The notes beneath the pieces are model-generated. The model was given only the letters and a program-made list of their open reading frames with translations. It made no database searches and had not been told where the DNA came from. 58,673 nt of DNA from Chitinophagaceae bacterium (GTDB taxonomy: Bacteria; Bacteroidota; Bacteroidia; Chitinophagales; Chitinophagaceae). The stretch spans positions 1 to 58,673 of the forward strand of contig CANFLL010000013.1 of assembly GCA_947447825.1 (NCBI GenBank), written 5' to 3'. Below are positions 2,472 through 55,473 of this stretch, piece by piece. Numbering within the stretch: position 1 is the stretch's first letter; each line of letters opens with the position of its first letter. The position numbers and the translations under genes are program-made.

Positions 2472-2765
2472 CAATTTTCAGGCTAAGAACTCCAATTTTC
2501 AGTTTAACAAGTGCGTACTTTACGTTCCACAACCCAGTGCTTTAGGTTTTTTTGGTAAAATTTCACGTAGGCACAACTGAAGTTTTACGTCTGTCACCTA
2601 AAGCACGATTTCGTGGCACGTAAACCACGCACATATTTCCCTAAAACTTGGGTTACATTTATCAAAATTTGAGGTCTTGAAGTTATAGCTAGCGGTTATT
2701 AACCTAAACGTTGCGGTATCATACCCTAAACCAACCAGTTATTTACACTAAAAAACAACCCATTT
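2472..2765. repeat. Array F: degenerate 21-bp-period repeats with a large imperfect palindrome
   Basis: Two clear neighbouring units begin CAATTTTCAG at 2472 and 2493. Later units stay in the same 21-bp register, for example CCTAAAAC at 2640, CCTAAACG at 2703 and CCCTAAACC at 2724. The middle is a long imperfect inverted repeat centred at about 2571.5: GTGCTTTAGGT (2537-2547) pairs with ACCTAAAGCAC (2596-2606), and TGCGTACTTTACGT (2512-2525) pairs with 2618-2631 with two mismatches. I found no convincing gene in it. Confidence 0.6.
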
Positions 2766-2828
2766 TTTGTTTTCATTGTGGCGTATTCCTGAGTTGTATC
2801 GTATTTTTTTACTTATTACCACCTACTT

Positions 2829-3015
2829 GTGCGAATCAAGAGTTGAATTTTAGTTTTTACACAATAAAAGCCTCTTTTTTACATTATAATGGCATGTGAG
2901 CAGACATATTATTTATGGTTTATGAATACCTTCTTACAAAAGGTACTTCCTACCCTTGATTCGCATAATAAATAAAAAAAGTTGAGGCTCATTCTTAACT
3001 GAATGAGCCTTTTTT
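2829..3015 (+). ncRNA. Possible structured small RNA ending in a strong terminator
   Basis: There is no credible reading frame here, yet the segment ends in a textbook intrinsic terminator (2985-3015). An 11-bp inverted pair, TGCGAATCAAG (about 2830) and CTTGATTCGCA (about 2955), could close a roughly 135-nt structure just before it. I do not recognise an Rfam family. The terminator could instead belong to a decayed gene. Confidence 0.25.
2985..3015 (+). terminator. Intrinsic terminator without an obvious gene
   Basis: The stem is AGGCTCATTC (2985-2994) / GAATGAGCCT (3001-3010), with loop TTAACT and a T-run following. An A-run precedes it, so it could act in both directions. No protein gene ends nearby on either strand, so it marks an unannotated or lost transcript. 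Confidence 0.7.
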
Positions 3016-3038
3016 ATGCTCATTATGCCTCTTTTTTT

Positions 3039-3211
3039 GTCCGTTTTAGACTGTTTTTAGTCAGGATATTCGTCTTTTTTGTCACGATTAATGTTAATTT
3101 AGTCAGGATATTTCACTTTTGGTCAACAAAAAGTGAAATATCCTGACAAAAAACACGAATATCCTGACGAAAAACACGAATATCCTGACAAAAACAAGCC
3201 ATATTGCGCAG
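3039..3211. repeat. Array A: 21-bp repeats in two opposite orientations around a 19-bp palindrome
   Basis: Forward units start with GTC at 3039, 3060, 3081 and 3102 (core GTCAGGATATT). Reverse-complement units start ATATCCTGAC at 3138, 3159 and 3180, with a decayed one at 3201. Successive starts are exactly 21 bp apart within each orientation. The two halves meet in a perfect 19-bp hairpin: 3102-3120 pairs with 3129-3147. Confidence 0.8.
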
Positions 3212-3607
3212 GAATTACGTTGATTTTAGGTTGAAAAGAGGGGTATTTCAACCGTTTTATTTATTTCTAGGAAGGAAAGATTTGAATTTGGGAACGAGGG
3301 GAATATTTTAGGGCTGATTAGTTGGGTAAGGATGTAATTGAATGGTTTTTGTATCGGTAATCGCACGTATCATGGTGACATGAAATTTAGGTTGACAACA
3401 ACACAAGCTATTTTGTATCCTTTTACTTGCAACAGCTTCGGCAAACGCTTTTCTTATTTACATTGATGTTGAAGAAATTGTAGAACGGAGTGAAGAACAA
3501 TACCCAATGTTTTCTCAAACCACTTGACTAACGAATAAACAAGCGATATTCTATTCTAGTTTTTCTATTTTAATCGCTTTAGTGCTTTTTATTCAAACAA
3601 TTTAGTG

Positions 3608-3782
3608 TGTATAACATTTTTTCAACAGAGATGAAATATGAATAATTTGCCATCAATTTCGCTAATGAACACTAATAAATATATTCTATCCTATTCGTAT
3701 TTATTAGTGTAGTTAGTGGCAAAATGCTTTCTCTGCCAAGTTTTCTTGTCTCCATAAACTCTTTGAAAAAAAATGTTATACA
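3608..3782. repeat. MITE-like long imperfect inverted repeat
   Basis: This 175-bp segment begins TGTATAACATTTTTTCAA and ends with the near-complement (TTGAAAAAAAATGTTATACA). It has an inner hairpin with perfect 13-bp arms, ACACTAATAAATA (3669-3681) and TATTTATTAGTGT (3698-3710), and TTGCCA/TGGCAA further out. It has no coding capacity. It may be a small non-autonomous transposon relic; no clear target-site duplication is visible. Confidence 0.45.
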
Positions 3783-3913
3783 TACCCCACAGCTACTTTC
3801 AACGCTTGATTCGGATAAATGATTACTTTCAACTTCCTTAGGCTAGCCAAAACATCCTTAGTTTTGATTCAATCATCCATAATAGATGAATCACCTTTAT
3901 TAAATTTGATAAT

Positions 3914-4612
3914 ATGCAAGAAAATAAAAAGAAACTAGTAGTGCTTACTGGTGCTGGAATGAGTGCCGAAAGTGGACTGAAGACTTTTAGAGATAGCGAC
4001 GGATTGTGGGAAGGTTATGATGTGTATGAAGTAGCTACTCCACGAGGTTTTAAAGCAAATCCGGAATTGGTGCTGAACTTTTACAATGAAAGAAGACGTG
4101 ATGTGGCAAAAGCTAAACCTAATGAAGCACACATTGCATTAGCTAATTTGGAGTCTCATTTTGATGTTCACATTATTACACAAAACATTGACGACCTACA
4201 CGAACGGGGTGGCAGCAAAAAGGTTACTCACCTGCATGGCGAGATATTTAAGATGCGAAGTGTGAATGAAATATCTAAAACATACCCCATTACTGGCGAC
4301 ATTAAACTGGGTGATTTGGCAGAAGATGGTGGTCAATTGCGCCCTTTTATTGTGTGGTTTGAGGAAGAAGTGCCGATGATTGAAGTGGCGGCAAAAATTG
4401 TGAGACAAGCAGACATCTTTGTAGTTATAGGCACATCATTGCAAGTATATCCTGCGGCAGGATTGGTTAACTATGCCCCCTATCAAATCCCTAAATTTAT
4501 TATTGACAAGAAAATACCCTACACAGCTTCTTTGTATAACTTGACTGTAATTGAAAAAAGCGCAGTGGAAGGCGTGAAGGAACTGAGAAAGCAACTTAGC
4601 TATGAGTTCTGA
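3914..4612 (+). CDS. cobB: NAD-dependent protein deacylase, SIRT5/CobB class
   Basis: A Sir2 family enzyme that removes acyl groups from lysines using NAD+, giving nicotinamide and O-acyl-ADP-ribose. The product is 232 residues. It shows GAGMSAESGL (13-22), TQNIDDLHERGG (89-100) with the NAD-binding N91 and D93, and the catalytic His in HLHG (H108). The YxxR pair (Y57, R60) is the class III signature for succinyl- or malonyl-lysine. The four zinc-binding cysteines of most sirtuins are absent, as in many Bacteroidota homologues. It lies alone between the repeat region and the next gene on the same strand. An in-frame TAAATTTG is present shortly upstream. Confidence 0.93.
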   Translation: MQENKKKLVVLTGAGMSAESGLKTFRDSDGLWEGYDVYEVATPRGFKANPELVLNFYNERRRDVAKAKPNEAHIALANLESHFDVHIITQNIDDLHERGGSKKVTHLHGEIFKMRSVNEISKTYPITGDIKLGDLAEDGGQLRPFIVWFEEEVPMIEVAAKIVRQADIFVVIGTSLQVYPAAGLVNYAPYQIPKFIIDKKIPYTASLYNLTVIEKSAVEGVKELRKQLSYEF

Positions 4613-4765
4613 GTGATGAGTCATGAGTTGAAAGTTGAAAGTTTGAATGAGGGTTGGCAAGAGGAGTTGTTATTGGTTTTATTCAATAGCATTGAAGGAT
4701 GTTTTTTTGTAGAATTACCAATTGGGGACTCTATTCCTTTGTGTTCTTTGTTTTTCCTTTGTACC
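4605..4765. repeat. Short-phrase repeat plus half of a CACAAAG-type element
   Basis: Right after the sirtuin stop comes a GAGTGATGAGTCATGAG, GTTGAAAGTTGAAAG low-complexity run (about 4607-4645). Farther on, CCTTTGTGTTCTTTGTTTTT (about 4737-4757) matches the right arm of the hairpin elements described at 25446 and 34641. No left arm is evident, so this looks like a decayed copy. No gene is seen in 4613-4836. Confidence 0.4.
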
Positions 4766-4836
4766 CTTTTTGGTAAAGCTCCTTAGTAATGTTGTTTTTT
4801 GTGGTTGATGAAAATTTGAATTATTATTGCCTCGTT

Positions 4837-5685
4837 ATGAAATTAATCTTGCTTTTTATAAGTGCCTGCTTGGCATCTTCGTCTTTGTTTGCTCAATATT
4901 ATTTTACAGATATAGTGGCTAATGCACAAAGCAGCACACAATACAAACTATTGACTGATGCTAAAGTGAAACAAGTGAAAGCCATTAACTATGATGAAAA
5001 AGGTAATGTGATTGCAGATTTGGGCATTGAACAAAGTATTATTGATGGTGGCAAAAAAATTATTACTAAAACCTCAATACCTAATAGTAGTGCATCTACA
5101 CTTGAAAATAATTATACAGATGGCAAGTTGATTAGCTCTACTAACAATAATATGCAAACCTTTACCACCCTTTCTACCACTACAACCTATTCTTACAACG
5201 ACAAAGGATCAATCGCTTCTATCAATTCCACTTCAACTGATACGGCTGCCGCTACTGGTTTTTTGGCTGAAAGACATACTTGGCTATACAATGAAAAAGG
5301 ATCGCCAACTTTAATGTATAAAATAAAAGGACAAAAGGATACCTTGAAAGTGGTGTTTACGTATGATGAAAAAGGCAATGTGGCTGATGAACGCTGGATG
5401 AAAAAAGGGCAAATGACAGAAAAATATTACTACTACTATAATGACATCGGTTTACTTACGGATGTGGTTAGATTTAATGACAGAGTTAGAAAACTGTTAC
5501 CAGATTTTGTTTATGAATATGATGCAGATGCAAACATGACCAAAATGACGCAAGCAATAATGGGCGGAACAGATTATCTTATTTGGGAATACACCTATAA
5601 TGATAAAGGACTTAAAGAAACCGAAACCTGCTATAACAGAAAAAAGAAGCTTCAAGGTAAAGTGGTGTTTGAGTATAGTTATTAG
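4837..5685 (+). CDS. Secreted YD-repeat-like protein of unknown function
   Basis: From the ATG at 4837 the product is 282 residues and begins with a clear signal peptide (MKLILLFISACLASSSLFAQ), so this start is preferred over an upstream in-frame ATG at 4789. The body contains several loosely repeated Y-(D/N)-E/D-K-G motifs (INYDEKGN, YNDKGSI, YNEKGSP, YDEKGNV, YNDIGLL, YNDKGLK), spaced like the YD/RHS-type beta repeats of secreted proteins. There is no lipobox Cys and no T9SS C-terminal domain. It is probably exported to the periplasm or surface; the function is unknown. It uses a TAG stop. Confidence 0.75.
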   Translation: MKLILLFISACLASSSLFAQYYFTDIVANAQSSTQYKLLTDAKVKQVKAINYDEKGNVIADLGIEQSIIDGGKKIITKTSIPNSSASTLENNYTDGKLISSTNNNMQTFTTLSTTTTYSYNDKGSIASINSTSTDTAAATGFLAERHTWLYNEKGSPTLMYKIKGQKDTLKVVFTYDEKGNVADERWMKKGQMTEKYYYYYNDIGLLTDVVRFNDRVRKLLPDFVYEYDADANMTKMTQAIMGGTDYLIWEYTYNDKGLKETETCYNRKKKLQGKVVFEYSY

Positions 5686-5745
5686 AAGGTTTATTCTAAC
5701 GACTAATAACTAAAAACAAAAGATAATTTCCTTATTTTTAAACCG

Positions 5746-6384
5746 ATGTTCAATTATACCGATAAAACATATTTTGAGTACGACCTATCAGATTATCTTG
5801 ATTTGAATAATGCAGTCTCATTGCAGGAGGCAAATACCATTTTTGCGTTCTTTAAAAACCACTGGCTTTTTAAATGGAATGATGCCCACAATGACTGCGA
5901 AGACAGGGCTAATGCTATCTGTATTTTGTTGGATCAATGGCGAATACCCAATTATAAGGGATGGGTTTTTAGCGGTTATTACCTTAAAGGAGAATATGGT
6001 TCGCTCATTAATTTATGGAACTATCATGTGGCTACTATTATTCCTGTTCAGATTGATTATATTACTTATCTATACGTTATCGATCCAGCAACGCTTCACC
6101 AATTAGAAACCATTGATTTTTGGGCTAGTAATGTTACCGAATTCCCTTACAGCTATTATCTGGTGAAATATGGCAGTTATTACATTTTTCCTGCGGAAAA
6201 TATTCAACGCGATAACTGGCATTGGCGCGACCATGAAAACTATCAATGGACGATTGAAGGGCTAGCTGGCATTAATGGTGTTGCCCCCGATGGCGACTTT
6301 CATATTTACAATAACAGAAAGATTATCGAACGTACTAAAGTTGAATTCAATAAACTAAAAAATGGAGGATCTCCCTTCAGGTAA
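5746..6384 (+). CDS. Protein-glutaminase-like (deamidase) domain protein
   Basis: A 212-residue protein with the Cys-His-Asp pattern of the protein-glutaminase fold: C51 in HNDCEDRANAIC, H94 in LWNYHVATI and D113 in YVIDPAT. In the Chryseobacterium enzyme this triad deamidates protein-bound glutamine. Unlike that secreted enzyme, I see no signal peptide or pro-region, so it is probably cytoplasmic or uses another export route. Its last 30 bp overlap the 3' end of convergent recQ. Assignment rests on motif spacing; a transglutaminase-like cysteine peptidase is the alternative. Confidence 0.6.
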   Translation: MFNYTDKTYFEYDLSDYLDLNNAVSLQEANTIFAFFKNHWLFKWNDAHNDCEDRANAICILLDQWRIPNYKGWVFSGYYLKGEYGSLINLWNYHVATIIPVQIDYITYLYVIDPATLHQLETIDFWASNVTEFPYSYYLVKYGSYYIFPAENIQRDNWHWRDHENYQWTIEGLAGINGVAPDGDFHIYNNRKIIERTKVEFNKLKNGGSPFR

Positions 6385-8283
6385 AAGTTTCATAACGCCC
6401 TCTTCATCAATAGAAATTTGAAATTCTTCTTGCATCATGGATACAACTTTCCATAAACTTTCACGAGAATGAATGGGTATCCCTTCAAAAAAAGTAAGAA
6501 ATGAAGTGTGCCCCGCATTTAAATAGTCCAAAATGTGTTTTTGTATGGCTGCTAATTCTGTTAAATCATCCGGCCTTTTCTTTTTTTTTAAACAATTATC
6601 ACATACCCCACAATGCCCTGCTTCCACATCACCAAAATAGAGTGCAATGTATTTGCTTCTGCATTGTTCATCTATCAAAGCAAACCATCTCATATCACTC
6701 ACTCTTCCTTCAAAAGCTTTTTTCCTTCTGGAATAAGCAGGATAATTAATGTTCAAATATTTGGCAGGTGCTCTATCCAAAATAAAATGTATTTGCGGCG
6801 TTTCCTTTTGTGGTTGATAATGCAAAATGCGATAGGATTGTAGTTGCATCAGTTTCATTTTAACATCCTCTTCCTTCATGCGCAACATCTTTGCAATACG
6901 CTTTTCCGAGATGCTAACTTCATTATCATAGATGCCCGTGTAGCTTCGTAGCAAGCATTTAGCCACAGAATCTAACTGAGGAAGCGTTTGTTCTAAATCG
7001 TTCAGCACTCCTTTTTCGGCAGTGAACACCACTTTTGAAGGCAGAAAAACGGTTTCATTAAAAGATAAATGCCCTTCTTGCTCCAACACTTTCAATACCG
7101 AAACCGCCACCGCAGCATTCAATTTAAAGTTTTTGATAAATGTTGCGATATCAAAATCATAATAATTGCCCTCCCCAATGCCAACTGGAATGTTCAAAAA
7201 ATTAGCCAAAGCCTGATAAACATTGCTCAAAACTTCTACTGATGGATACCTTATTTCGGGCAGTTCTTCTAGTCTTTTAATGTCCTGATCATTATACAAC
7301 AAGATGCAATAAGCTTTTTCTCCATCTCTACCAGCCCTTCCTGCTTCCTGATAATAACTCTCCAAGCACTCAGGAATGTCGTAATGAATAACAGTGCGCA
7401 CGTCTGGTTTATCAATCCCCATTCCAAAAGCGTTCGTACAAACAACCACACGTGTTCTATTATCAATCCAATCTTGTTGCTTTTTACTCCGTTCTTCTTG
7501 CGTTAACCCAGCATGATAAAAGTGAGATGAAATGTTTTGCAACGCCAATAACTGCGAAACTTGTTGCGTTTGGTTTCTGCTTCGAGTATAAATAATGCTG
7601 CTTCCATTCACACTATTCAATATATCAGTAACCTTATTAATCTTACTATCTACCTTAAAAGCAGAATAGGAAAGGTTAGGACGCTCAAAGCTTTGTTTAA
7701 AAATTGTTGCTTTAAATAGTTTTAGTTTTTTGATAATATCCTCTTCCACAATAGCCGTTGCAGATGCAGTAAGCGCAATCATTGGAACATTTTTGTGTAC
7801 ATGTCTTAGAAAAGAAATCTTTAAATAAGGTGGGCGAAAATCGTAGCCCCACTGACTAACACAATGTGCTTCATCAACCGCAATAAGGCTACAATCAAGT
7901 TTAGGCAAGTATTTAAGAAACAGATTTGTTTCCATCCTTTCAGGAGAAATGTATAGGAATTTATAGTTGCCTGCCACTACATCTTCCAATATAGTCTCAA
8001 CATCAAATGGTGAAAGACCACCATAAATAGCAATGGCAGGAATGCCTCGGCTTAAAAGACCATCTACTTGATCTTTCATCAGTGCAACCAATGGTGAAAT
8101 TACCAAACAAACGCCTTCCATTATCAATGCTGGCACCTGAAAACAGATAGACTTTCCACCACCAGTGGGCAACATGGCAAACACATCATGCCCTGCCAAT
8201 ACAGCTTCTATGATAGCTTCTTGATTACCCCTAAAGTTGCTGTGCTGCCAATATTGTTGTAGTATCTGTGAGGGAGTTGTCAA
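6355..8283 (-). CDS. recQ: ATP-dependent DNA helicase RecQ
   Basis: A 3'-5' superfamily 2 DNA helicase for recombination and fork repair. The product is 642 residues. Motif I is TGGGKS (40-45), motif II DEAH (137-140) followed by the RecQ aromatic-rich loop CVSQWGYDFRPPY, motif V TNAFGMGIDKPDV, and motif VI QEAGRAGRDG. The zinc-binding cysteines lie around CRSKYIALYF...CGVCDNC, followed by a winged-helix region. The C-terminal tail is short and there is no obvious HRDC domain. Genes on both sides are convergent or distant, so it is monocistronic. A TAACTTTG box lies upstream. Confidence 0.95.
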   Translation of the reverse strand: MTTPSQILQQYWQHSNFRGNQEAIIEAVLAGHDVFAMLPTGGGKSICFQVPALIMEGVCLVISPLVALMKDQVDGLLSRGIPAIAIYGGLSPFDVETILEDVVAGNYKFLYISPERMETNLFLKYLPKLDCSLIAVDEAHCVSQWGYDFRPPYLKISFLRHVHKNVPMIALTASATAIVEEDIIKKLKLFKATIFKQSFERPNLSYSAFKVDSKINKVTDILNSVNGSSIIYTRSRNQTQQVSQLLALQNISSHFYHAGLTQEERSKKQQDWIDNRTRVVVCTNAFGMGIDKPDVRTVIHYDIPECLESYYQEAGRAGRDGEKAYCILLYNDQDIKRLEELPEIRYPSVEVLSNVYQALANFLNIPVGIGEGNYYDFDIATFIKNFKLNAAVAVSVLKVLEQEGHLSFNETVFLPSKVVFTAEKGVLNDLEQTLPQLDSVAKCLLRSYTGIYDNEVSISEKRIAKMLRMKEEDVKMKLMQLQSYRILHYQPQKETPQIHFILDRAPAKYLNINYPAYSRRKKAFEGRVSDMRWFALIDEQCRSKYIALYFGDVEAGHCGVCDNCLKKKKRPDDLTELAAIQKHILDYLNAGHTSFLTFFEGIPIHSRESLWKVVSMMQEEFQISIDEEGVMKLLPEGRSSIF

Positions 8284-8327
8284 AAGTGTGTTGTATGAGT
8301 TTGATGATAAAGCCTTTTTTCGAATTT

Positions 8328-8335
8328 CAAAGTTA
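8328..8335 (-). promoter_or_regulatory. Candidate -7 box for recQ
   Basis: Read on the minus strand this is TAACTTTG, an exact match to the Bacteroidota -7 consensus TAnnTTTG, about 45 bp upstream of the recQ ATG. I do not see a convincing -33 TTTG. The rest of 8284-8673 holds no gene that I can support. Confidence 0.35.
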
Positions 8336-8673
8336 GCGGTTATGGTTGGAACAGATTAAATGAGTTAGGGATATTAAATTTTGAATTTTAAGTTTTGAAT
8401 TAAGATTAGCAAATAGAAAGGTATAAGTCAAAAATTCACACTTACCAATAAAGGCTTCGCACAGTCCAAATAACCCTTAAAAAAAGGTCTAATGCTATGC
8501 ATTTTAGCTAAAATTGAACTGTTGAAACCTGATACTAGTCGAAATGATTATTTGCAAAAAAAGAGGCTTGTTTTAAAGGACACTTAGCCTTGTATAAATG
8601 CGGGAAGTGTACATGGAGTTAAATAATGAACAAAAAAATAGCCACCTCATTTGAGATAGCTACTTGTTTTGTG

Positions 8674-8747
8674 TCGGGAAGACAGGATTCGAACCTGCGA
8701 CCCCCTGGTCCCAAACCAGGTGCGCTACCGGCCTGCGCTACTTCCCG
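8674..8747 (-). tRNA. tRNA-Pro (anticodon TGG)
   Basis: On the minus strand the acceptor stem CGGGAAG pairs with CTTCCCG, followed by discriminator A. The anticodon loop reads TTTGGGA with anticodon TGG. The T-arm contains GGTTCGAATCC and the D-arm is normal. No encoded CCA. The length is 74 nt. Confidence 0.95.
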
Positions 8748-8769
8748 TTTGGTGGTTTTAAGCTTTTTG

Positions 8770-8858
8770 CGGTGAGAAAGGGATTCGAACCCTTGGTACA
8801 GTTTAACCCGTACGGCAGTTTAGCAAACTACTGATTTCAGCCACTCATCCATCTCACC
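8770..8858 (-). tRNA. tRNA-Ser (anticodon GCT)
   Basis: On the minus strand the acceptor GGTGAGA pairs with TCTCACC, discriminator G. The anticodon loop is TTGCTAA with stem GTAGT/ACTGC, and there is a long variable arm as expected for serine. The T-loop is GGTTCGAATCC. It lies 22 bp from tRNA-Pro in the same direction, so the two are probably co-transcribed. Confidence 0.95.
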
Positions 8859-9053
8859 GTCCTTACTCCTTTTTCAGAGAGGGACGCAAAAATAGGGATG
8901 TCAAACTGAATGGCAAAATCATTTTTCATTTTTTTTAAAGAAATTTCATCTAGTCTATCATTAGTGCCAAATTTCTAAGAAAATCAGCTATTTTTTTAGC
9001 CAAATCTTGTAAAACGAATATTTAGTCTGAAAAATTCATAGTGTTTAAACAAA

Positions 9054-9080
9054 AAAGGTTTCGCAATAGACGAAACCTTT
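9054..9080 (-). terminator. dnaA terminator
   Basis: The stem AAAGGTTTCG (9054-9063) / CGAAACCTTT (9071-9080) is followed on the minus strand by a T-run. It lies 27 bp beyond the dnaA stop. Confidence 0.75.
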
Positions 9081-9106
9081 AATAATATTGGTAGATAAAT
9101 TTACTA

Positions 9107-10549: not shown

Positions 10550-10679
10550 AATTCTTTAAAAATTTATATGTAAATAAAATTATATTATCAAATATGGATT
10601 TATCAAGGAATGTTAGTTTTGAACCCGAAAAATTTATTGGGAGTGCGAATATGGACACTTTTTGTTGAAAAAAAAATTT

Positions 10680-12339: not shown

Positions 12340-12695
12340 GTAAATAATGGTTGAAAAGTGAAGATATATAAATTTTCAAATACAAAAAACTGATTGTTGC
12401 CCCAGATTCGAAATATTTTTATTTTTTTTAACCAGAATTAAAAAAATAGTCACTGGCATATAAAGTTTGTGCAAATTTAATAATTGAATATGTAGTGTTA
12501 ATAGCTTGGTGCTGAATATATTGAATTCAATAAAAGCATTCAGCCCTAAAATAAGTTAAACCCGTTGTAGGGTTTTATCATAGTTGCTTATAAAAAATTG
12601 AGTGGACTTTTACCGAAATTGGGATTATGTGTTTTGATGATGTTCTAAAAGGAATGAGTTTAATTGACTTTTATATAACTGAGGCACTAAGGGAG

Positions 12696-16880: not shown

Positions 16881-17086
16881 TTAAAAATTTTATTTAGTAA
16901 CAGTGCTTTCAAAAAAGAAAAGTACAAACTTTTAGTCAAACCAACGGTAAAAAGTTTTATTGCCCTTATTTTGGCAAAATTTAATTAACTAATTAGTAGT
17001 ACTTTTCGGGCAAAGAAAACGAATTGTATTTTTACATTTATTATTATTTAATAGAATTAATTTTCTTGTTATTACTAAGGTTTATT

Positions 17087-17216
17087 TTAACCACAAGGAA
17101 AACTAAGTATCTCACAAAGAACTCAAAGATTATATGGTAATACTTGTTAAGCAATGATAATGGTAAAATTTAATCCTTTGTGCACCTTGATTTCACTTGT
17201 GATCTTAGAGGTAAAG
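17087..17216. repeat. CACAAAG-type imperfect inverted-repeat element
   Basis: The left arm is TAACCACAAGGAAAACTAAG, then CTCACAAAGAACTCAAAG. The right arm is CCTTTGTGCACCTTGATTTC, then CTTGTGATCTTAGAGGTAAA, roughly its reverse complement. It is one of several intergenic copies (also 25446, 26121, 34641). It fills most of the 407-bp gap 16881-17287, which has no gene. Confidence 0.5.
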
Positions 17217-17287
17217 CTTCTGAGTAGTCCCATATTTTCTTTACATATTGTTTAAATAACAATAATTTTCAATCTCAATAAAACAAC

Positions 17288-19612: not shown

Positions 19613-19807
19613 AATTGCAAGATAGCTAAAACAAGTAGATAATGTAATTAAGTATTGAAAATGGAAGTAATTGCTACGAATTGGTCTGAGACTTTTCTAA
19701 AGTTCCCGAAACTATCTAAGCGAATCCACAAGTGACACGGTTACGGTAGCCTTGGTAGATTTTAGTTATTGACTTGCACTAGCGGAGAGTGGACGTTGAG
19801 TTGCCAG

Positions 19808-22323: not shown

Positions 22324-22575
22324 AGACTTAAAAGTGGTGTATTTAGGTCATCGGACGAAGGATTTAGGTCATCGGACGAAGGATTTGAACCATCGGACGG
22401 AGGATTTGAAACATCGGACGGAGGATTTGAATCATCAGACGGAGGATTTAAACCATCGGACGAAGGAATTGAATCATCAGACAAAGGATTTGAATCATCA
22501 GACGGAGGATTTGAACCATCGGACGGAAGATTTAAGTCGTCAGACGTTGTATATAGACATTTTGATGATTATTTC
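22324..22575. repeat. Array B: tight 21-bp tandem repeats (GGACGGAGGATTTGAA-like)
   Basis: Ten clear units in exact 21-bp register from 22345 to 22554, each with a core close to ATCGGACGGAGGATTTGA, plus a decayed unit on each side. There are no indels. One plus-strand frame (22334-22585) is open and would encode a heptad of type DLNHRTE with Leu at every seventh position, a coiled-coil-like pattern. There is no evidence that it is translated. It lies between divergent genes, about 190 bp upstream of one and 75 bp upstream of the other. Confidence 0.9.
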
Positions 22576-38687: not shown

Positions 38688-38897
38688 CAAACACGCAATG
38701 ATTCACTTGAGTCGAAGATAAACTCACCTGAGTGACGGAGTGACTCAGGTGAGTCGTGTCATGACTCACCTGAGTCGTGACGTGACTAAGGCAAGCGGCT
38801 TCATGACTCAGTTGAATTTATCTTCCGTTCAAGTGAGTCATGCCATGACTCACTTGAGTCATGACATGACTCGGGTGAGCGGTTTGCCCAAAAATGA
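38688..38897. repeat. Array C: palindromic 21-bp repeats (GAGTCATGACATGACTCACT-like)
   Basis: About ten units in strict 21-bp register (starts at 38688, 38709, 38730, 38751 and so on to 38877), each near GAGTCATGNCATGACTCAC. Most units contain a local palindrome (GACTCACTTGAGTC or ATGACTCA/TGAGTCAT). Variation is concentrated in the central bases. Two forward frames are broken by TGA. No gene is seen in the rest of 38469-38979. Confidence 0.9.
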
Positions 38898-38979: not shown

Positions 38980-39199
38980 TTACAGCATCAGTTGTATAAA
39001 AACTAAATCGATCAAACGGTCAAACTTGTAGCCAGCATCTTTAATTCTGCCAGCTTCTACAAAGCCAAACTGCGCATGAAAGTCGCAGCTTTTTTGGTTA
39101 GCCGCTTTTATAATCGTAAATGGTGGTAGTGCTCAATATCGCCTCATTCATTATTTCTAAAATAATGGGCAGGTCACGATGTTCAGCATTGCGTATCAT
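38980..39199 (-). pseudogene. Remnant of a GNAT acetyltransferase (PAT-like)
   Basis: On the minus strand, from an ATG at 39199, MIRNAEHRDLPIILEIMNEA is the N-terminus of a phosphinothricin-type N-acetyltransferase. It then reaches a stop and, in another frame, continues as HAQFGFVEAGRIKDAGYKF plus DRLIDLVFIQLML, which is the C-terminus. The middle of the usual ~165-residue protein is missing, so this is a deleted pseudogene of about 220 bp. Confidence 0.8.
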
Positions 39200-39304
39200 A
39201 AATTAGTGGTTAGTGACAATAAAAAACTTGAAATACCAACAAGAATGAGTGACTAATTAACTAAGCACTAATATCTAACAACTAATAGCTATTCATTAAA
39301 ACTT

Positions 39305-44008: not shown

Positions 44009-44197
44009 AATGATAAGGAATGGTTAAATAATGAACATTATTCGATTTTTCCTCACCAATAAAACGATTTTAATGTAGAGTATTGAAACTTTATTGTACA
44101 AGAATTGGGTTTTCCTTACCAGTAAAATGAATTTACTGTAGAGTATTAATGATATACTGATCATTAAAATTAGTTTACTGAACAGGAAAAACGCACT
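44009..44197. repeat. Array E: decayed 21-bp-period repeats upstream of the PLP enzyme
   Basis: Nine units in register (44009, 44030, 44051, ... 44177). Many begin A(C/A)TG and end in TTT. Two pairs are clearly related: CCTCACCAATAAAACGATTT (44051) with CCTTACCAGTAAAATGAATT (44114), and AATGTAGAGTATTGAAAC (44072) with ACTGTAGAGTATTAATGA (44135). All six frames contain stops, so it is not coding. No gene is seen in 43770-44209. Confidence 0.75.
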
Positions 44198-46109: not shown

Positions 46110-46151
46110 TGACTACAATCTAATAGGTGTTGTTAAAGATTAAAGGGGGGA

Positions 46152-47042: not shown

Positions 47043-47076
47043 ATTGTATTTTTAATGTGTTAATGAATTGATACTA

Positions 47077-48282: not shown

Positions 48283-49777
48283 GGATTAACTGATTTTGTT
48301 GATCATCGATTCTTTTTGTTAGTACTATCAATGCCGCTGCAATATAAAAATGTACGTTAGATGGAAACTGAACAATTGCTTCCTGTGGAAAATTGCCAAT
48401 GTTGAAAGTGAAAATTACAAATGTTGCCCCCAGACAAATTGATTTCAATTCTGGATCAACTATTTTGTAGTAGTTAACGATACCAGTTTTTAGTATGGTA
48501 AAAACCATAATCACAAAAATAGTTAGCCCAATAAAACCAGTTTCAACTGTTGTTCTCACATATCCACTATCGGGGGGAAAGTCTGCAAGATAAGTTCCTG
48601 GCGAATATTTTTTACCCCATTCTCCCGTAGAACCAAGTCCGCCACCCATTGGATGTGTCCAGATGTAAGGTTTAATACGAGATTGATTATACTTCCGAAC
48701 CTTGTATGATGCATCTTCATTGGGTCTGAATGCAGATTGAAACCGTAAGATATTTTGATTTGACGTAGGGAGAAATATCAATCCTACAATAAAAATGGCT
48801 GCAAATACAGAAAATATTAGAATTTTTTTACTGAATTTAATAATAGCATATAGCACTAATGCAACTGGAACAAGTGGGAATGCACCCCTTGTTCCAGAGA
48901 AAAACATGTTGAAAAGACAAGAAAACATTAAAAACAACAACCAGAATTTTTTTCTTGGTGTTACGGGGCCAGTTAAACGACCAATACAGAAAACTGCTGC
49001 TGCCACCATGTTGTAGGCAAAAGTTACAGGGTCAGAGTAGATGGAAAACTTACGCCAGTGTCCAGCAATAAATAATAATTGTGTAATTAATGGACTTGAA
49101 TGTAAGTAGGCTTCTTCATTTTGATTAAACCCAAAAAACTCTTGTTTAAAAGCATACCATGCTGCCACAAAACAAAAGAACAGCCATAAAGAAATTATTT
49201 TTTTCATGAATGCCTTTGTTCTTACGTTATAGATGAACATAAAAAAGCTAATTGCAACAATCCCACAGGTACGAATGGTGTAAACCCATGCTAGTCTGGA
49301 AGCTGCAACAGGATTTCCTACTTCTAATATGTTGTAAACTATCCATGTTAAAATAGTTATGCTCATTGGTCCACTAACTAAATCCCATCTTTTCTTTTGT
49401 TTTTGTTGGACATAAAAGTTGATGGTTAGCAATAAAATGATTCCATCCATGACTGTACCCAAAGGAAAATTGACTCCCGATAGTAGTAAAAACATTATGG
49501 TATTGGAGAGAGTTAGATAGCAAATCAGGGCAAAAGTTGGTTTTGTTGCTAAGGCAACTAGAAATACCGGGCCAATTAATCCCCCAATTAACAATACCCC
49601 AAATGGAAATCCTTTTGAAACAATTAGGCATGAGAAAATACCGGATATGATAGTGAAAACAATAAACCCAAATGGATTATACATTTTCTCCAAAACAACC
49701 CATTGTTTTAATTTGGCAGTTAAAGACTGCCATTTAGAAGCTGATTCTGTATTAACTGGTATTTCTAAATTTATCAT
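48263..49777 (-). CDS. O-antigen ligase/polymerase-like (WaaL/Wzy) membrane protein
   Basis: 504 residues with about eleven to twelve hydrophobic segments. It starts at the ATG at 49777, which follows the small upstream gene's stop by one base; the longer reading from 49819 overlaps that gene and is rejected. The large periplasmic loop near the C-terminus contains SRIKPYIWTHPMGGGLGSTG and PDSGYVRTTVETGFIGL, the WaaL-type region with conserved Arg/His. It is probably the polymerase or ligase of the surface polysaccharide whose transferases follow. It overlaps the GT4-like gene by 20 bp. Confidence 0.83.
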   Translation of the reverse strand: MINLEIPVNTESASKWQSLTAKLKQWVVLEKMYNPFGFIVFTIISGIFSCLIVSKGFPFGVLLIGGLIGPVFLVALATKPTFALICYLTLSNTIMFLLLSGVNFPLGTVMDGIILLLTINFYVQQKQKKRWDLVSGPMSITILTWIVYNILEVGNPVAASRLAWVYTIRTCGIVAISFFMFIYNVRTKAFMKKIISLWLFFCFVAAWYAFKQEFFGFNQNEEAYLHSSPLITQLLFIAGHWRKFSIYSDPVTFAYNMVAAAVFCIGRLTGPVTPRKKFWLLFLMFSCLFNMFFSGTRGAFPLVPVALVLYAIIKFSKKILIFSVFAAIFIVGLIFLPTSNQNILRFQSAFRPNEDASYKVRKYNQSRIKPYIWTHPMGGGLGSTGEWGKKYSPGTYLADFPPDSGYVRTTVETGFIGLTIFVIMVFTILKTGIVNYYKIVDPELKSICLGATFVIFTFNIGNFPQEAIVQFPSNVHFYIAAALIVLTKRIDDQQNQLIHEQIIS

Positions 49778-49778
49778 T

Positions 49779-49931
49779 TTATGGAGAAGAGGGCAATACC
49801 ATTTTAAGAAATAATGCAATCAATATAAACGCCACGAAACCAACAGCTACCTTTTGGGTTACTTTTTCTGTTTTTTGCAGTAGTTTCTCTTTCTTTTTCT
49901 GTTTGTAAAATAAAGTAGAATTAGTGCGCAT
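49779..49931 (-). CDS. Small 50-residue single-pass membrane protein
   Basis: 50 residues: a Lys-rich N-terminus (YKQKKKEKLLQKTEKVTQK) followed by one hydrophobic helix (VAVGFVAFILIALFLKMVLP). Its stop (49779-49781) is one base from the ATG of the O-antigen-ligase gene, a strong sign of a real, translationally coupled gene. Unrecognised; perhaps a small regulator or scaffold for the ligase or Wzz complex. Confidence 0.6.
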   Translation of the reverse strand: MRTNSTLFYKQKKKEKLLQKTEKVTQKVAVGFVAFILIALFLKMVLPSSP

Positions 49932-50028
49932 AACTAAAGTATGTTCATTGTGTTAGCTACAAAAATATATTTTTTGGCAACTGTAAACAATAGAAAGCCG
50001 ATTTTACTAAAATAAAAACGGTTATTTT

Positions 50029-51126
50029 CTACACACCTTTTGCTTTGAACTTTGTTCTTAAATTGAGTAATGGCTTTTCAACCAAGTAAAAAGACAGATT
50101 GGCAATTATGAAAATCAAAATAATGTTAAGAGGAAAGTTTTTTAAATCCCCTACTTTTTCGGAAAAAAATATTTGTTGCCACAAATAAATGCTATAAGAC
50201 AATTTGCCAATGTAGTTGAGGAATGAGCTATTCAGTATTTTAAACCAAATATTGTTTTCAAAATTTATTGAAATAAGGATTATGAAAGCTGTACAAATAG
50301 CTGTCATCATGCCAAAAGAACCGAAAAAAGCATTAACAATGGGTTCTGAATTATTGAATCCTAACAATGAAAATATTTTTTTACTCGCAATTGCTACCAG
50401 CAAAAATATAAAAGGGAGGAGCAGCAGATACTTGCTTGCAGCATAAACATTGTTTAGAAATGTAATAATACTTTCATTGTATAATCCAAAAATACAACCC
50501 CACATTAATGCGTCCGCTCTTGTGAATAGGTGCATGTGTGTAGTGTTGGTAAACAACCTAACTGAAGTGGATGCTAATATGACTAGTATTGCAAATCCAA
50601 TTTTATTCTTTTTTAAGAATTTAAATATTAGCGGCCACACCAAATAGAAGTGTTCTTCCACAGATAATGACCATAAATGTCCGCTTTCCCAATCGGAACC
50701 TTTTGTTAAAGTAAAGTCTTTGGAGTATGTAAGAGATCTAATCCAAGAGGCAGATGAAAAGCTAAACAATCCTAATAATTGAAAAATGAAGTAGACAAAA
50801 AGTAAAAAATAGTAAACAGGGAATATTCGTATTGTTCTACGGATATAGAATAGTTTCAATGAAACAAATCCATTTGCTTTTTCCTCTTTTACCAATAATA
50901 GGGTAATTAAATAACCAGATATTACGAAGAATATGTTTACACCAATTTGTCCACCAGGAATTTCCGGATTTTGAATTAGCTGTAATAGCTTTAATGCTAT
51001 TGAAGGAGAAACATAACTAAAAATATGTTGAAGAAAAGTGATTATCGATATATATCCATGTGCATAAAGAACTAAAAAAATACTCAAGGCTCTTAATCCA
51101 TTAAGACTCGGAATTTGTTTTTTCAT
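50029..51126 (-). CDS. Acyltransferase 3 family membrane protein
   Basis: 365 residues with about ten membrane segments. SLNGLRALSIFLVLYAHGY, QIGVNIFFVISGYLITLLL, FYIRRTIRIFPVYYF and LWSLSVEEHFYLVWPL are the OafA/YrhL hallmarks (R, H and E). A C-terminal YIGKLSYSIYLWQQIFF segment closes the fold. It probably acetylates a surface glycan. Same strand as the ligase operon, about 97 bp upstream of the small gene, so it may be the first gene of that cluster. Confidence 0.87.
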   Translation of the reverse strand: MKKQIPSLNGLRALSIFLVLYAHGYISIITFLQHIFSYVSPSIALKLLQLIQNPEIPGGQIGVNIFFVISGYLITLLLVKEEKANGFVSLKLFYIRRTIRIFPVYYFLLFVYFIFQLLGLFSFSSASWIRSLTYSKDFTLTKGSDWESGHLWSLSVEEHFYLVWPLIFKFLKKNKIGFAILVILASTSVRLFTNTTHMHLFTRADALMWGCIFGLYNESIITFLNNVYAASKYLLLLPFIFLLVAIASKKIFSLLGFNNSEPIVNAFFGSFGMMTAICTAFIILISINFENNIWFKILNSSFLNYIGKLSYSIYLWQQIFFSEKVGDLKNFPLNIILIFIIANLSFYLVEKPLLNLRTKFKAKGV

Positions 51127-51228
51127 CTACTAAAAATTTGCAGCCAAGATACCTTTTTTTATAATATGAATTATTTAGACGAATTATTTAGGCTAAAATC
51201 CCACTCGAATTTATATTAATCCTATTGT

Positions 51229-52581
51229 TTATCTTAACACCATTTGCCTATCGGCATCTAGACGAACAAGAATAAATAACAACATCGTGAAACTAAGTAA
51301 AGACGAGCCGCCATAACTTATGAATGGCAAAGTAATTCCGATTATCGGGAATAGTCCAATTGTCATGCAAACATTCACAACGATATGAAAGAACATTATG
51401 CAAGCAACACAATAGGCATATACTCTACTGAAGGTACTTCGTTGTTTTTCAGCAGTGTTAATAATTCGCAGTAGTAAGAACAAGTATAGACCTAAAAAAC
51501 ATACTGAACCTGCTAATCCGAAGGCTTCACCTATGCTTGTAAATATGAAATCTGTGTGCTGCTCTGGCACATATTTGCCTCTTGTTTGTGTTCCTTTCAA
51601 AAAGCCTCTTCCTATTAATCCTCCCGAACCAATAGCTATTTTACTTTGGCGTACATTGTAATCATCAGGTTTTTTTGCTGCCTTTTCTTTGTCGGCAGTT
51701 CGGCGCATGGCACTTTTGTTTTGGCTACAATCATAATCCTTACCCACCATGCTAAATATTCTGGTACTTTGATAACACTGAAAAACATTATTGAAAATGT
51801 AAGGAACCGCAAAACGTTGTATTCCCACACAAATAGCCCAAATGATAATGATTGTGGCGAGCAAATTCTTGTTTCTTTTTCGTATCCTTCTGGTAAAATA
51901 GATGACAGCACCAGCAATAATTGTAAGCGCAATAGCCAGTGTATTTGGTTCCAAAACAAGGGTAGCAATTACCAATGCGCCAAACGAAAAGCCAATAATT
52001 AATAACCCCGGTGGTAAACCCTCGCGATACATTACTATGAAAAATGAAAAGTAAACTAATGCTAAACCAGTCTCATTCTGCAAAATTGAAAGAAAAGCAG
52101 GTGCTAAGGCAATGCAACCTCCAATGATTTGTGAACGCAATTTTGAAAAGTCTGTTTCCTGTCTAGCTAAAAATTTGGCTAAGGCAAGGGAGGTAAAAAT
52201 TTTGCAAAGCTCGGCTGGTTGAAGATTAAATCCGCCACCTAATGGAATCCAGCTTTTAGATCCATTGATACTTTTGCCTATTACAAAAGTGGCTAGCATC
52301 AACAATATTCCAAATGAATACATAAGGTTGGCAAATGCTGTAAAAAGTTTACTATCAGCCAATAATATAAACAAGGTCATTACAACGCAGATACTGCCAA
52401 ACATAAGTTGTTTGCTATAATTGGTTTTGCCGCCTAAAAATGATTGCAAAATGTTTATGCCTGGCTTATATTCTACCATAAAAATGCACAAAATACCGAT
52501 TGCTACTAGGGTGGCATAAACCCACACAATAACCCAATCGATACCAGGTGAAATCTGTTTATTATTTTTTGCAGTAGCCAT
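51229..52581 (-). CDS. rodA: Rod shape-determining peptidoglycan glycosyltransferase RodA
   Basis: 450 residues, SEDS family (FtsW/RodA/SpoVE) with ten predicted membrane segments. SKSWIPLGGGFNLQPAELCKI contains the conserved P-x-E/K-loop, ILQNETGLALVYFSF the DxGT/ExG-type catalytic motif (here N-E-T-G), and GLFPIIGITLPFISYGGSS is the signature SYGGS region. A long charged insert (about 285-325) lies in the extracytoplasmic loop and is common in Bacteroidota. It forms the elongasome synthase with MrdA encoded next upstream (3-bp gap). Confidence 0.92.
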   Translation of the reverse strand: MATAKNNKQISPGIDWVIVWVYATLVAIGILCIFMVEYKPGINILQSFLGGKTNYSKQLMFGSICVVMTLFILLADSKLFTAFANLMYSFGILLMLATFVIGKSINGSKSWIPLGGGFNLQPAELCKIFTSLALAKFLARQETDFSKLRSQIIGGCIALAPAFLSILQNETGLALVYFSFFIVMYREGLPPGLLIIGFSFGALVIATLVLEPNTLAIALTIIAGAVIYFTRRIRKRNKNLLATIIIIWAICVGIQRFAVPYIFNNVFQCYQSTRIFSMVGKDYDCSQNKSAMRRTADKEKAAKKPDDYNVRQSKIAIGSGGLIGRGFLKGTQTRGKYVPEQHTDFIFTSIGEAFGLAGSVCFLGLYLFLLLRIINTAEKQRSTFSRVYAYCVACIMFFHIVVNVCMTIGLFPIIGITLPFISYGGSSLLSFTMLLFILVRLDADRQMVLR

Positions 52582-52584
52582 TTG

Positions 52585-54702
52585 TTATGCCTTTATTGGT
52601 TTTCTATAAAAACTATATTTCTTTTCATCAGTAAGAATAGCCGCATTATTATAGGTGAATGCTTTTTTGCTACTATCCTTGGTTGATCTACTTCTTATTT
52701 GTTTGGGTACTACTTCATTTGTTGTATCTATTTTAATTTCTTCCTCTATTGTGTCCTCATCTTCTTTCATTTTTTGTTGTTGCAATAACAGCAATTTTGC
52801 TTGCTTAATAGAATCCATTCTTGCCATTGCCAAACGCATCATTGGAGGAATGAGGTTCTTCTTTGCTAAATCTTCTACCCTTTTTTTTCTTTCAGGACTA
52901 GCAACTGAGTCTTTCAGATATTTTTCTATCATCAAACTTGCTATTGGGGCAGAGGATTCTGCACCAAAACCTGCATTCTCGCAAATGATGGCTATGGCAA
53001 TTTTGGGATTGTCTCTTGGGGCAAATGCGCCAAAGAAAGCATGGTCTTTTTGTTTGACCATTACGCCATTCACTTTCGCAGAATTTTGTACTGTCCCTGT
53101 TTTTCCGCACACCACAATGCCCGGCACTTGAGCTGCTGCACCTGTGCCAAACTCCATCACGGCTTGCATTCCATCTTGCACCTGTGTATACACACTGTCT
53201 GGCACATCTCTCGTTACATGTTTTATTTTAAAAGAATCCAGCAATCCATTAGTGTCGCCTCCTTCAATGGAATCAACTAAATGAGGCGTGTAATAATAGC
53301 CTCTATTGGCAATGGTAGCCATCACATTAGCCAACTGCACAATGGTTGTTTGCACCTCGCCCTGACCAATTGAATTCGAAATGATATTGCAAGAATTCCA
53401 ATTGCGACCAAAAATTTTTCGATAATAAGATGATATAGGCAGATTCCCATTCTTTTCTGATGGCACATCAACGCCTAGTTTTCTTCCTAGCCCAAATGAA
53501 GATGCGTAGGTATTAAAATTTTTCAATCCACTATCCGCATTAGGAAATCTTGGTTGATCTAATATTCTTTTAAAAACAGTAGCAAAGAAGGTGTTACAAC
53601 TATGGGCAATACCTTCCTTAAAATTAAAATATCCTGGATCCAAACATTTTGGTTTGCCATTTCCACATCCATAATATGCTCCCGAACAGCCAATTCGTGT
53701 ATTGGCATTTATTACGCCTTCTGTTAGCCCAATGATTCCTACGATGGTTTTAAAAGTTGAGCCAGGCGAATATTTAGTGCTTACTGTTCTGTTAATTAAT
53801 GGAAGTCGAGGATCCAGTGCTAGTTCTCCGTAGTGCCTTCTGCGTTGACCTCCAGTTAAATAATTGGGGTCATAAGTGGGGGCACTCACCATGCACAATA
53901 CACCACCTGTTTTTGGGTTTATGGCAACAATACTTCCCACTTTATTGGTCATTAGTTTTTCACCAAGTTTTTGTAATTCGATATCGAGGCTTAAATGCAG
54001 ATTTTTTCCTGCAACTGCGGCTGTGTCATAAACGCCGTTTTCTAGTGGGCCTTGAATGCGGCTTTTATTGTCGCGGATAAACCGTTTAACGCCACGCTTA
54101 CCCATCAGTATTTTTTCATAACTGCGTTCTAATCCTGTTATGCCTGCATAATCGCCGTTTTCGTAACCTTCGTCTTTATGTTTTCTTAGAAAAGAAGTAT
54201 CTACTTCTGCAATATATCCCAACACATTGGCTGCTGCACTAAAAGGATATACCCTAGCCGAACGCTCGCTAAGTACAAAGCCAGGAAATTTGAACATGTT
54301 TTCATTCAGCTTTGCATACATTTCTGGCGAAAGCAAAGGCTCGAACACGCAAGGGCGAACGATTCCATTACGGAAAGAAATTTCTTTCATTCGTTTTTTA
54401 AATTCGGCAGTATCTATACCCATCAAATCACACAAGCCAAGTGTGTCCACACCTTTACATTCAATTGGGGTAACTACTAAATCGTACATGATGGTGTTTT
54501 CCAAAATGCTTTTACCATTTCTATCGTATATAATTCCACGATCTGGATAGATAATTTTTCTGTAGATGGCATTATTCTCTGCCGCAAGTTTGTACTTGGA
54601 AGAAAACACTTGAAGGTTAACTAATTGTCCAATAATGATTAGAAATACAAGCCCAAAAGCTATTTGTATGATACCGCTACGACTTTGATTGAATACAGAC
54701 AT
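52585..54702 (-). CDS. mrdA: Penicillin-binding protein 2 (elongasome transpeptidase)
   Basis: 705 residues. One N-terminal membrane helix, pedestal region with YPDRGIIYDRNGK, and transpeptidase motifs SxxK (S315-TFK), SxN (ISNSIGQG) and KTG (CGKTGTVQN). It cross-links side-wall peptidoglycan and activates RodA. A C-terminal extension of about 90 residues after the catalytic domain is Lys/Glu-rich and coiled-coil-like. It forms an operon with rodA. mreBCD are not adjacent upstream: the next gene is the TonB-dependent receptor, behind an array and terminator. Confidence 0.94.
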   Translation of the reverse strand: MSVFNQSRSGIIQIAFGLVFLIIIGQLVNLQVFSSKYKLAAENNAIYRKIIYPDRGIIYDRNGKSILENTIMYDLVVTPIECKGVDTLGLCDLMGIDTAEFKKRMKEISFRNGIVRPCVFEPLLSPEMYAKLNENMFKFPGFVLSERSARVYPFSAAANVLGYIAEVDTSFLRKHKDEGYENGDYAGITGLERSYEKILMGKRGVKRFIRDNKSRIQGPLENGVYDTAAVAGKNLHLSLDIELQKLGEKLMTNKVGSIVAINPKTGGVLCMVSAPTYDPNYLTGGQRRRHYGELALDPRLPLINRTVSTKYSPGSTFKTIVGIIGLTEGVINANTRIGCSGAYYGCGNGKPKCLDPGYFNFKEGIAHSCNTFFATVFKRILDQPRFPNADSGLKNFNTYASSFGLGRKLGVDVPSEKNGNLPISSYYRKIFGRNWNSCNIISNSIGQGEVQTTIVQLANVMATIANRGYYYTPHLVDSIEGGDTNGLLDSFKIKHVTRDVPDSVYTQVQDGMQAVMEFGTGAAAQVPGIVVCGKTGTVQNSAKVNGVMVKQKDHAFFGAFAPRDNPKIAIAIICENAGFGAESSAPIASLMIEKYLKDSVASPERKKRVEDLAKKNLIPPMMRLAMARMDSIKQAKLLLLQQQKMKEDEDTIEEEIKIDTTNEVVPKQIRSRSTKDSSKKAFTYNNAAILTDEKKYSFYRKPIKA

Positions 54703-55247
54703 AATTTGTCAGGTGAAAGAGTTCTGTTATGAAACGCTGTAAAGTTGCGACTCCAATCGGATTTAATGAAAAAAAAGACATATAAATTTACCCACACTAA
54801 TCTTAAAGAGGCTTTTGTTCCTATTTGTAACTCCTGCTTGCCCATCATACTACTTATTGAATGGTATGTTACCACTCAAGAATTTACCATTAAGTACAAT
54901 TAAAAAAACAAAGGACATTGAAGTTTAGCTTATGTTGTTATCATTCTTTGTTAAGTAAAAAGCGCACAATCCTTGTGTTTTACGAGTCAACCTCTTTTCA
55001 AAAAGGTGTTCCATTGCTAAGAAGTAGCAGTTTGAATGACTTTTTTAGAATCATGAAAGTAAATCAATCCCTTTCATTCGCTTTAAGTGAAATCCTCCTT
55101 TGTATTTAGAATTTTCAAATGACTATCTGCTCTTTAATTTAGTCCTCTTTCTCCCATTTATTGAACTGAGTGACGCTTTTATTCACTTGAACGTTTTAAG
55201 GATTATGGTGAATGAATGGCGCTTTCAGATGCTAATATTACTCAATT

Positions 55248-55473
55248 GTGTGAGGACATATTTGGTAGGTGTGAAGACATATTTGGTATGTGTGAAGACG
55301 TATTTGGTATGTGTGAAGACGTATTTGATATGTGTGAAGACGTATTTGATATGTGTGAAGACGTATTTGATATGTGTGAAGACATATTTGGTATGTGTGA
55401 AGACATATTTGATATGTGTGAAGACGTATTTGGTATGCGTGAAGACGTATTTGATATGTGTGAAGGATTGGAA
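55248..55473. repeat. Array D: tight 21-bp repeats (GTGTGAAGACGTATTTGATA-like)
   Basis: Ten full 21-bp units plus a partial one, starting 55248, 55269, ... 55437, 55458, with no indels and only about five variable positions. One plus-strand frame (55216-55476) starts with ATG and encodes a heptad of the type MCEDVFG; two other plus frames, and the minus frame, are also free of stops across the array. The putative frame ends just before a terminator at 55480. Substitutions do not clearly favour synonymous changes in any frame. No gene is otherwise seen in 54703-55534. Confidence 0.9.

Follow-up and report, generated by a model that had tools for sequence, protein, structure and literature searches.

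A stretch of 58,673 bp from contig 13 of the 4.65-Mb draft genome of a Chitinophagaceae bacterium (hereafter the window; 35% G+C) contains six tandem arrays, A to F, with units of about 21 bp. An earlier description of the window (the original prediction) ascribed to all six an exact 21-bp period without a common sequence. The nearest named relatives of the source genome are metagenome assemblies of Chitinophagaceae, and the record names of these relatives suggest fresh water as the habitat of the clade. Tandem repeats are usually classed by their sequence. The class described here is recognized by its period alone, and its arrays are poor in insertions and deletions (indels), which tentatively points to selection on their helical spacing.

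The six arrays of the window

Matching of the window to itself at fixed lags shows a clear 21-bp period in arrays B to F. Of all lags from 5 to 99 in the whole window, the sliding-window threshold of 72 matches in 126 is reached only by 21, 42, 63 and 84. For B to F, the observed lag-21 value was not attained in any of 2000 base shuffles, whatever the lag; for A this happened in one of 2000. This null model is generous because the regions were those chosen in the original prediction. Tandem Repeats Finder (TRF) reports period 21 for B, C, D and F and none for A or E.

Array A (2472–2765) is located beside purD, as judged by domain search. The claimed period applies to it only in part. Its lag-match fraction is highest at lag 22 (0.42), followed by lag 21 (0.40), and its sequence matches C58, C21 and C20 of the same genome. 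At L007 and L008, related loci in other parts of the genome, TTTACGT-type units occur in a comparable mixture of 21 and 22 bp (lags 22, 21, 43 and 65), so array A is best taken as a decayed member of the class.

Among lags 5–69, lag 21 is the best for array B (3039–3211; match fraction 0.58), array C (22341–22545; 0.74), array D (38688–38897; 0.51) and array F (55248–55464; 0.91). Array B consists of units of GTCAGGATATTCGTGTTTTTT in two inverted arms (about 3052–3112 and 3133–3196) and has relatives at C43 and C51 as well as in the related genome G004 (L196). Array C, for which a span of 22324–22575 had been given, is built from ATTTGAATCATCGGACGGAGG units; TRF additionally reports period 63. 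Its relative at L068:14713–14916 has 16 of 21 consensus positions in common, and a plasmid search with array C gave no match. Array D is composed of dyad units of the GAGTCATGACATGACTC type, spaced by 21 bp, with a larger inverted repeat. By inspection of the sequence, B as well as D include large inverted repeats and have units in either orientation.

One copy of array D, in L067, shares its flanks, including a gene of the GNAT acetyltransferase family. This pair is a segmental duplication, since the common flank contains that gene; other matches of D extend little past the array itself. The conserved DNA beside array D in the window (38980–39204) is the remnant of the GNAT gene with an internal deletion and is not part of the array, whereas the array in L067 is adjoined by the full-length open reading frame (ORF; 161 aa).

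Array E (44009–44197) contains decayed dyad units of the TTTACTGTACAGTAAA type in 21-bp register. Its best lag is 63, followed by 42 and 21 (0.49), and it matches several other contigs and L064:3091. Array F, with a TonB-receptor-type gene on one side and a penicillin-binding-protein gene on the other, comprises about ten units of TGTGTGAAGACGTATTTGGTA. It is the most regular and the freshest of the six, and the earlier label of decayed was wrong. Array F is separated from the end of the TonB-receptor-type gene by a terminator-like inverted repeat with a T run at 55480–55519, read from the sequence. Among the genes next to the window arrays, those scanned are ordinary or without assignment.

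The consensus units of B to F (A left out) have at most 13 of 21 positions in common pairwise. For the window itself, a period without a common sequence is therefore a correct description. All five of these arrays nevertheless have relatives in other parts of the genome.

Period, distribution and unit turnover

The scan for further arrays was based on lag matching, was blind to the arrays of the original prediction and was run on sampled stretches. Two sets were drawn from the same genome, a first one of 15 unselected 20-kb stretches (300 kb) and a second, fresh one of 20 stretches (400 kb). Five of the 20 stretches of the first sampling had been picked for earlier matches; they were left out of the density and lag counts and used in the unit, fold and context tests. 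Twenty stretches chosen as orthologues or relatives entered the context and unit tests only, and five further stretches the unit tests and the site comparison only. Lags of 20–22, 40–44, 62–65 and 83–85 were accepted as at or near a multiple of 21. These are 15 of the 86 lags between 15 and 100, so evenly spread lags would give about 1 in 6.

In the first set, 17 of 19 arrays of lag 15 or more are at or near multiples of 21, and by eye the two exceptions resemble collagen-type coding repeats. The second set gives 33 of 34, with 28 exact multiples. The enrichment of lag 21 expected in the original prediction is thus evident in both unselected sets. Pooled, these are 50 of 53 arrays in 700 kb, which extrapolates to about 330 arrays per genome. 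Samples of five genomes of the clade, with the first own-genome set included, contain 45 arrays near multiples of 21 among 52, and the mean unit is exactly 21.0 in 34 of these 45. Together with the second own-genome set, this amounts to 78 of 86 arrays. One array of the second own-genome set, L223:4907, may be coding.

The arrays are dense in the samples of G000, G004, G007 and G011. One array is present in the 48-kb sample of G006, and some single loci of other close relatives carry arrays as well. In the outgroups (1,098 kb from five genomes in 25 stretches, plus 48 other loci) seven arrays of lag 15 or more are present; two of these are at multiples of 21, both in ORFs. Three of the outgroup loci belong to deep-branching members of the same GTDB genus (G005, G008 and G012), and in a 100-kb sample of G012 there are two arrays, a noncoding one with a period of 42 bp and a coding one with a period of 21 bp. 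Judging from these sparse loci and the G012 sample, either the clade does not extend over the whole genus or the trait becomes rarer in deep members. Arrays with a period of 7 bp are spread more widely than 21-bp arrays and are also present in the source genome and its family. In G012, G015, L086 and L102 such 7-bp arrays, some longer than 500 bp, were observed, with few or no 21-bp arrays in the respective samples.

The length of the arrays ranges from 53 to 400 bp with a median near 175 bp (67 arrays); the longest array of the fresh set has 464 bp. This 21-bp array is part of L214:16287–16885, where a second array lies nearby with a unit partly like the inverse of the first. In G011, arrays of the 21-bp type are located at contig ends (L137, L141, L143, L144 and L145). 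Given this position, short-read assemblies seem to break at the arrays and true lengths may be underestimated. An artefact of assembly or binning would fit the arrays at contig ends and the metagenomic origin of the close relatives. It is nevertheless hardly conceivable, for the same period occurs in at least three separate deposits (G004, G006 and G011) with units that have diverged and still keep register, and dinucleotide shuffles, one per stretch, yielded no array.

With 21-bp consensus units below 0.68 excluded, 86 consensus units remain, and these fall into 53 families that have fewer than 15 of 21 positions in common. Within the arrays, 9610 positions match the respective consensus and 1705 do not (0.85). 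Weak similarity between units (13–14 of 21 positions) is found in 110 pairs compared to 60 in shuffles. This excess fits remote common descent, as would be expected if the arrays were non-functional minisatellites. According to this neutral explanation an ancestral 21-bp array was dispersed and drifted, and slippage in unit steps or unequal exchange maintains the period without selection on phase. Families, dispersal and turnover, all of which it predicts, are seen. Two unit types share one register in L064:3091–3480 (read from the sequence), and the higher-order periods observed (41, 42, 63, 83 and 85) are those expected from homogenization.

Families D and E recur at many loci. Family F has ten matches at nine places of its own genome, the window copy counted. 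In seven copies of F the array bodies match in all 21 pairs, and comparison of their 14 flanks gave three short matches whose positions were not consistent. A leader, tail or ends in common are absent from these seven copies, the only family tested in this way. Hence the F body spreads without ends of its own, as the bodies match in all pairs and the flanks do not.

Dispersal of bodies and presence or absence between relatives could also reflect cargo of mobile elements, either of the kind of miniature inverted-repeat transposable elements (MITEs) with terminal repeats or as repetitive extragenic palindromic (REP) sequences moved by a Y1 transposase. The flanked copy of array D would suit this explanation as well, but the common flank of D includes an ordinary gene and the copies of F lack shared ends. 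Of 23 genomes, 19 have matches to Y1 transposases (RAYT subfamilies pooled), array-bearing and array-free ones alike; the counts do not track the arrays and do not point to a Y1 transposase as the mover. Furthermore, two array-less sites, described below, have diverged flanks instead of clean junctions. Mobile cargo is thus improbable. A CRISPR array was rejected, too, as the sequence shows head-to-tail units and no unique spacers (cas genes were not searched for).

Synteny between G000 and G004 extends to four array sites in the stretches compared; three of them sit in L065, a stretch picked for another array. At one site a similar array with 19 of 21 consensus positions in common is present in G004. 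At another, L065:19682–19880 faces L206:17903–18116. The two arrays have an equal 21-bp period and 12 of 21 positions in common. At this locus the unit sequence has changed and the period has not. Two sites have no counterpart in G004, and their junctions are diverged. Gene order is strongly shuffled between the two genomes, and the matched DNA is about 70–90% identical. By eye, six of ten array gaps are at synteny breaks; array-free gaps are often broken too, and no claim is made from this.

Gene context, indels and dyads

None of 76 arrays is inside a called gene, in agreement with the intergenic position originally described; 59 were placed between genes and 17 are at stretch edges. The gene caller was home-made and discards ORFs that consist largely of array. 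The genes flanking the 59 placed arrays are co-directional in 30 cases, divergent in 20 and convergent in nine. In gaps of at least 250 bp, intergenic DNA as a whole is distributed in much the same way (57%, 32% and 11%, respectively), and no preferred orientation to genes is found for the placed arrays.

A heptad coding origin, one of three options in the original prediction, would explain a period divisible by 3. Open frames are slightly more frequent in the arrays than in column-permuted controls (2.10 versus 1.59), and ORFs of at least 100 aa overlap with a few of the arrays. Variability by codon phase, on the other hand, reaches p<0.05 in only one of 67 arrays, and among arrays with an open frame the most variable phase is the third codon position in a fraction of 0.63 (0.60 by chance). 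Ten of 67 arrays have no open frame. The open-frame and codon-phase tests give no support to coding, and repeats encoding heptad peptides, or remnants of such genes, were rejected as very improbable.

For the indel test, arrays were aligned with gaps to their own unit, and gap events and substitutions were counted. The first set (61 arrays with lags at multiples of 21) has 29 gap events and 1705 substitutions (0.017), the fresh sample 20 and 921 (0.022; 28 arrays). In syntenic noncoding DNA of G000 and G004 the corresponding numbers are 49 and 411 (0.119; Fisher p = 3e-16 for the first set and 5e-11 for the fresh sample). Indels per substitution are thus five- to sevenfold lower in the arrays than in intergenic DNA. 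The earlier statement that the period outlives the decay of the sequence is well founded in this respect.

Array detection is ungapped and favors register. For this reason neutral simulations, run at the measured indel ratio or at a lower one of 0.09, were passed through the same detection. Ten settings gave ratios of 0.046–0.102, nine of them at least 0.068, and an earlier run with 50 arrays per setting gave 0.042–0.118. The real sets pooled have 0.019. Compared to simulations, the deficit is 2.5- to 5.4-fold. Neutral minisatellites with the measured indel ratio would accordingly retain 2.5 to 5.4 times more indels than are found.

The simulated share of off-register arrays depends on the model. 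It is 2–17% of the detected arrays in a star model and 31–58% in a duplication-tree model. The real share is 11 of 45 (24%) in the five-genome sample and 5 of 33 (15%) in the fresh sample, which is within reach of a star-type history plus some duplication. The duplication-tree model, which fits the turnover better, loses the 21-bp period more often than the real arrays do. Slippage with a fixed step, another of the original options, is conceivable: the real share lies between the two models, and the tight period counts against the latter only. From these comparisons we infer that the case for selection on register is made by the indel deficit and not by how tightly the period is kept.

Circular self-complementarity of the unit is significant (p<0.05) in 19 of 67 arrays and in six of 28 units of the fresh sample. 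Counted by non-redundant family, 14 of 53 pass, or 11 of 53 with a dinucleotide-preserving null. Columns paired in a dyad are better conserved than the others in 46 of 67 arrays (p = 1.5e-4), a point not covered by the neutral explanation, in which dyads are by-products, since hairpins promote slippage. Purine/pyrimidine polarity at period 21 has a z-score of 6.4 for the 86 units and 4.2 for the 53 families. The excess of dyads is moderate; like the polarity, it marks a trend within the class that not every array follows. No arrays of lag 10, 11, 31 or 32 were found in the clade samples.

In a fold test against column-permuted controls, 34 of 63 arrays showed better folding (z<-2) on one or both strands, compared to 6 of 36 control 7-bp arrays, several of which were not scorable. 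This would be expected for RNA elements, i.e. transcribed arrays that fold into rows of hairpins and terminate, stabilize or process transcripts. Array F is a case in point, as its plus strand folds far better than its minus strand (-71.8 versus -10.8). Over the whole set, however, both strands fold equally well (mean z-scores of -1.91 and -1.95; 63 arrays), and convergent or co-directional sites are not preferred. At gathering score, Rfam finds two tRNAs and no other family in the window. Since folding is equal on both strands and gene orientation tracks the share of intergenic DNA, DNA rather than a transcript is probably the relevant form. A function of transcripts was rejected for lack of any strand or orientation preference in the set, and RNA elements are an improbable explanation.

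Helical spacing and related repeat systems

The reading that we tentatively favor is that the arrays are intergenic minisatellites specific to this clade, in which the sequence turns over and the helical spacing is kept by selection, perhaps in order to present phased dyads. They would form one class, special to a clade of freshwater Chitinophagaceae, and their array bodies would reach new loci without the flanks, as seen for family F. Within a locus, units would be renewed by tandem duplication and homogenization in steps of one to a few units. The higher-order periods and the one shared locus with different units point to such a renewal, and fast drift of the units would follow from it, so that families and species look unrelated. 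The spacing of two helical turns would be maintained because arrays out of helical register are selected against, as suggested by the indel deficit. The object of selection is likely the DNA itself, with dyad or purine/pyrimidine-polar sites on one face of the helix. A single sequence-specific protein could not read all arrays; the putative reader would be a protein assembly that senses dyad or shape more than sequence. Both the selection on helical phase and a sequence-independent reading of the array DNA are thus inferred. Among the three options of the original prediction, phased binding on one helix face is favored on the basis of the indel deficit.

Several observations weigh against this. 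The neutral yardstick is small, as it consists of one species pair with 411 substitutions from local alignments, and it is the weakest link of the argument. The least favorable simulation setting leaves a deficit of only about 2.5-fold, and the correction is valid only under the models tried. Off-register arrays, which were kept separate in the indel test (15 in the first set, five in the fresh sample), have a higher ratio of 16/451 (0.035) and 3 gaps to 123 substitutions, respectively. The tight period alone is no evidence of selection, since off-register arrays are no more frequent in the star model than in reality. Taken singly, most families do not pass a dyad test, a local hairpin or dyad test is passed by 8 of 67 arrays, and arrays F and C are weak or mixed in the dyad and fold tests. 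A/T phasing at 10.5 bp is absent (z of -0.5 and 0.2 in two tests), which also argues against phasing of A-tracts for curvature as a shared trait. The two array-less sites in G004 with diverged junctions point in the same direction. The neutral explanation accounts for everything except the strength of the indel deficit and the conservation of paired columns, and is nearly as likely as selection on spacing.

It is rather unlikely that the arrays represent a geometry-only satellite system with drifting units, a register under purifying selection and reading by dyad or shape, comparable to centromeric or nucleosome-phasing satellites. If selection on phase is true, spacing can be a conserved trait of noncoding bacterial DNA, and the arrays would provide a test system for the organization of chromosomes by DNA geometry and a route to the reading protein. 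Even if neutral, they are dense and fast-evolving minisatellites that seemingly break assemblies and could mark strains.

The earlier statement that no named class fits is too strong. BrickBuilt, a minisatellite-MITE of Porphyromonas gingivalis (Bacteroidota), is described with related 23-nt units at 19 sites, leader and tail segments and IS5-like terminal repeats; 41- and 22-nt repeats are reported from the same species (PMC4596501). As far as this description goes, both systems have intergenic tandem arrays of imperfect units near two helical turns in length, many genomic copies, predicted stem loops, a host in the Bacteroidota and variable presence (between strains for BrickBuilt). The 21-bp arrays differ in that units vary between families (53 among 86 units), that no shared ends are found in family F, the sole family tested, and that their extrapolated number exceeds the 19 sites by far.

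The tandem repeats of Borg extrachromosomal elements are described as perfect, enriched in A and of varying length, with about half of them in ORFs (PMC9879509). Judged by this account, they resemble the 21-bp arrays in that many are present per genome, intergenic ones included, within one lineage and with fast turnover between relatives. Virtually each Borg array has a sequence of its own, a further point of resemblance, although among the 21-bp arrays sequence families recur. Furthermore, the 21-bp arrays are imperfect, intergenic and nearly fixed in period. Heptamer repeats of TAACTGA are reported from Beggiatoaceae, Cyanobacteria and a few Bacteroidetes and are in the type genome mostly located just upstream of start codons (PMC4679880). 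They, too, are short intergenic tandem repeats with many sets per genome and a patchy distribution in the cited account, but they consist of one 7-nt sequence. The 21-bp arrays have a threefold longer period and no preferred orientation to genes.

Phased plasmid iterons and centromere arrays (sopC, parC) are tandem sites spaced by whole helical turns, some with dyads, that are bound by protein assemblies. These are typically single loci with one recognized sequence and the gene of the binding protein close by. The 21-bp arrays have no common unit, and such a layout of a binding gene was not seen among their few annotated neighbors. Among the open-access papers surveyed, judged mostly by titles and the beginnings of abstracts, no class with a fixed period and without a common sequence was found. 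We call the 21-bp arrays a new variant of bacterial intergenic minisatellites, nearest to BrickBuilt and the Borg repeats.

Five further intergenic-looking segments of the window (520–590, 3645–3729, 4688–4790, 17065–17225 and 19709–19783) have dispersed matches in relatives; a lag scan detected no 21-bp arrays in them. A heptamer-type element (CTAACAACTAACCA) at 90–120 recurs in the four relatives searched, in the form of numerous short copies that are nearly identical.

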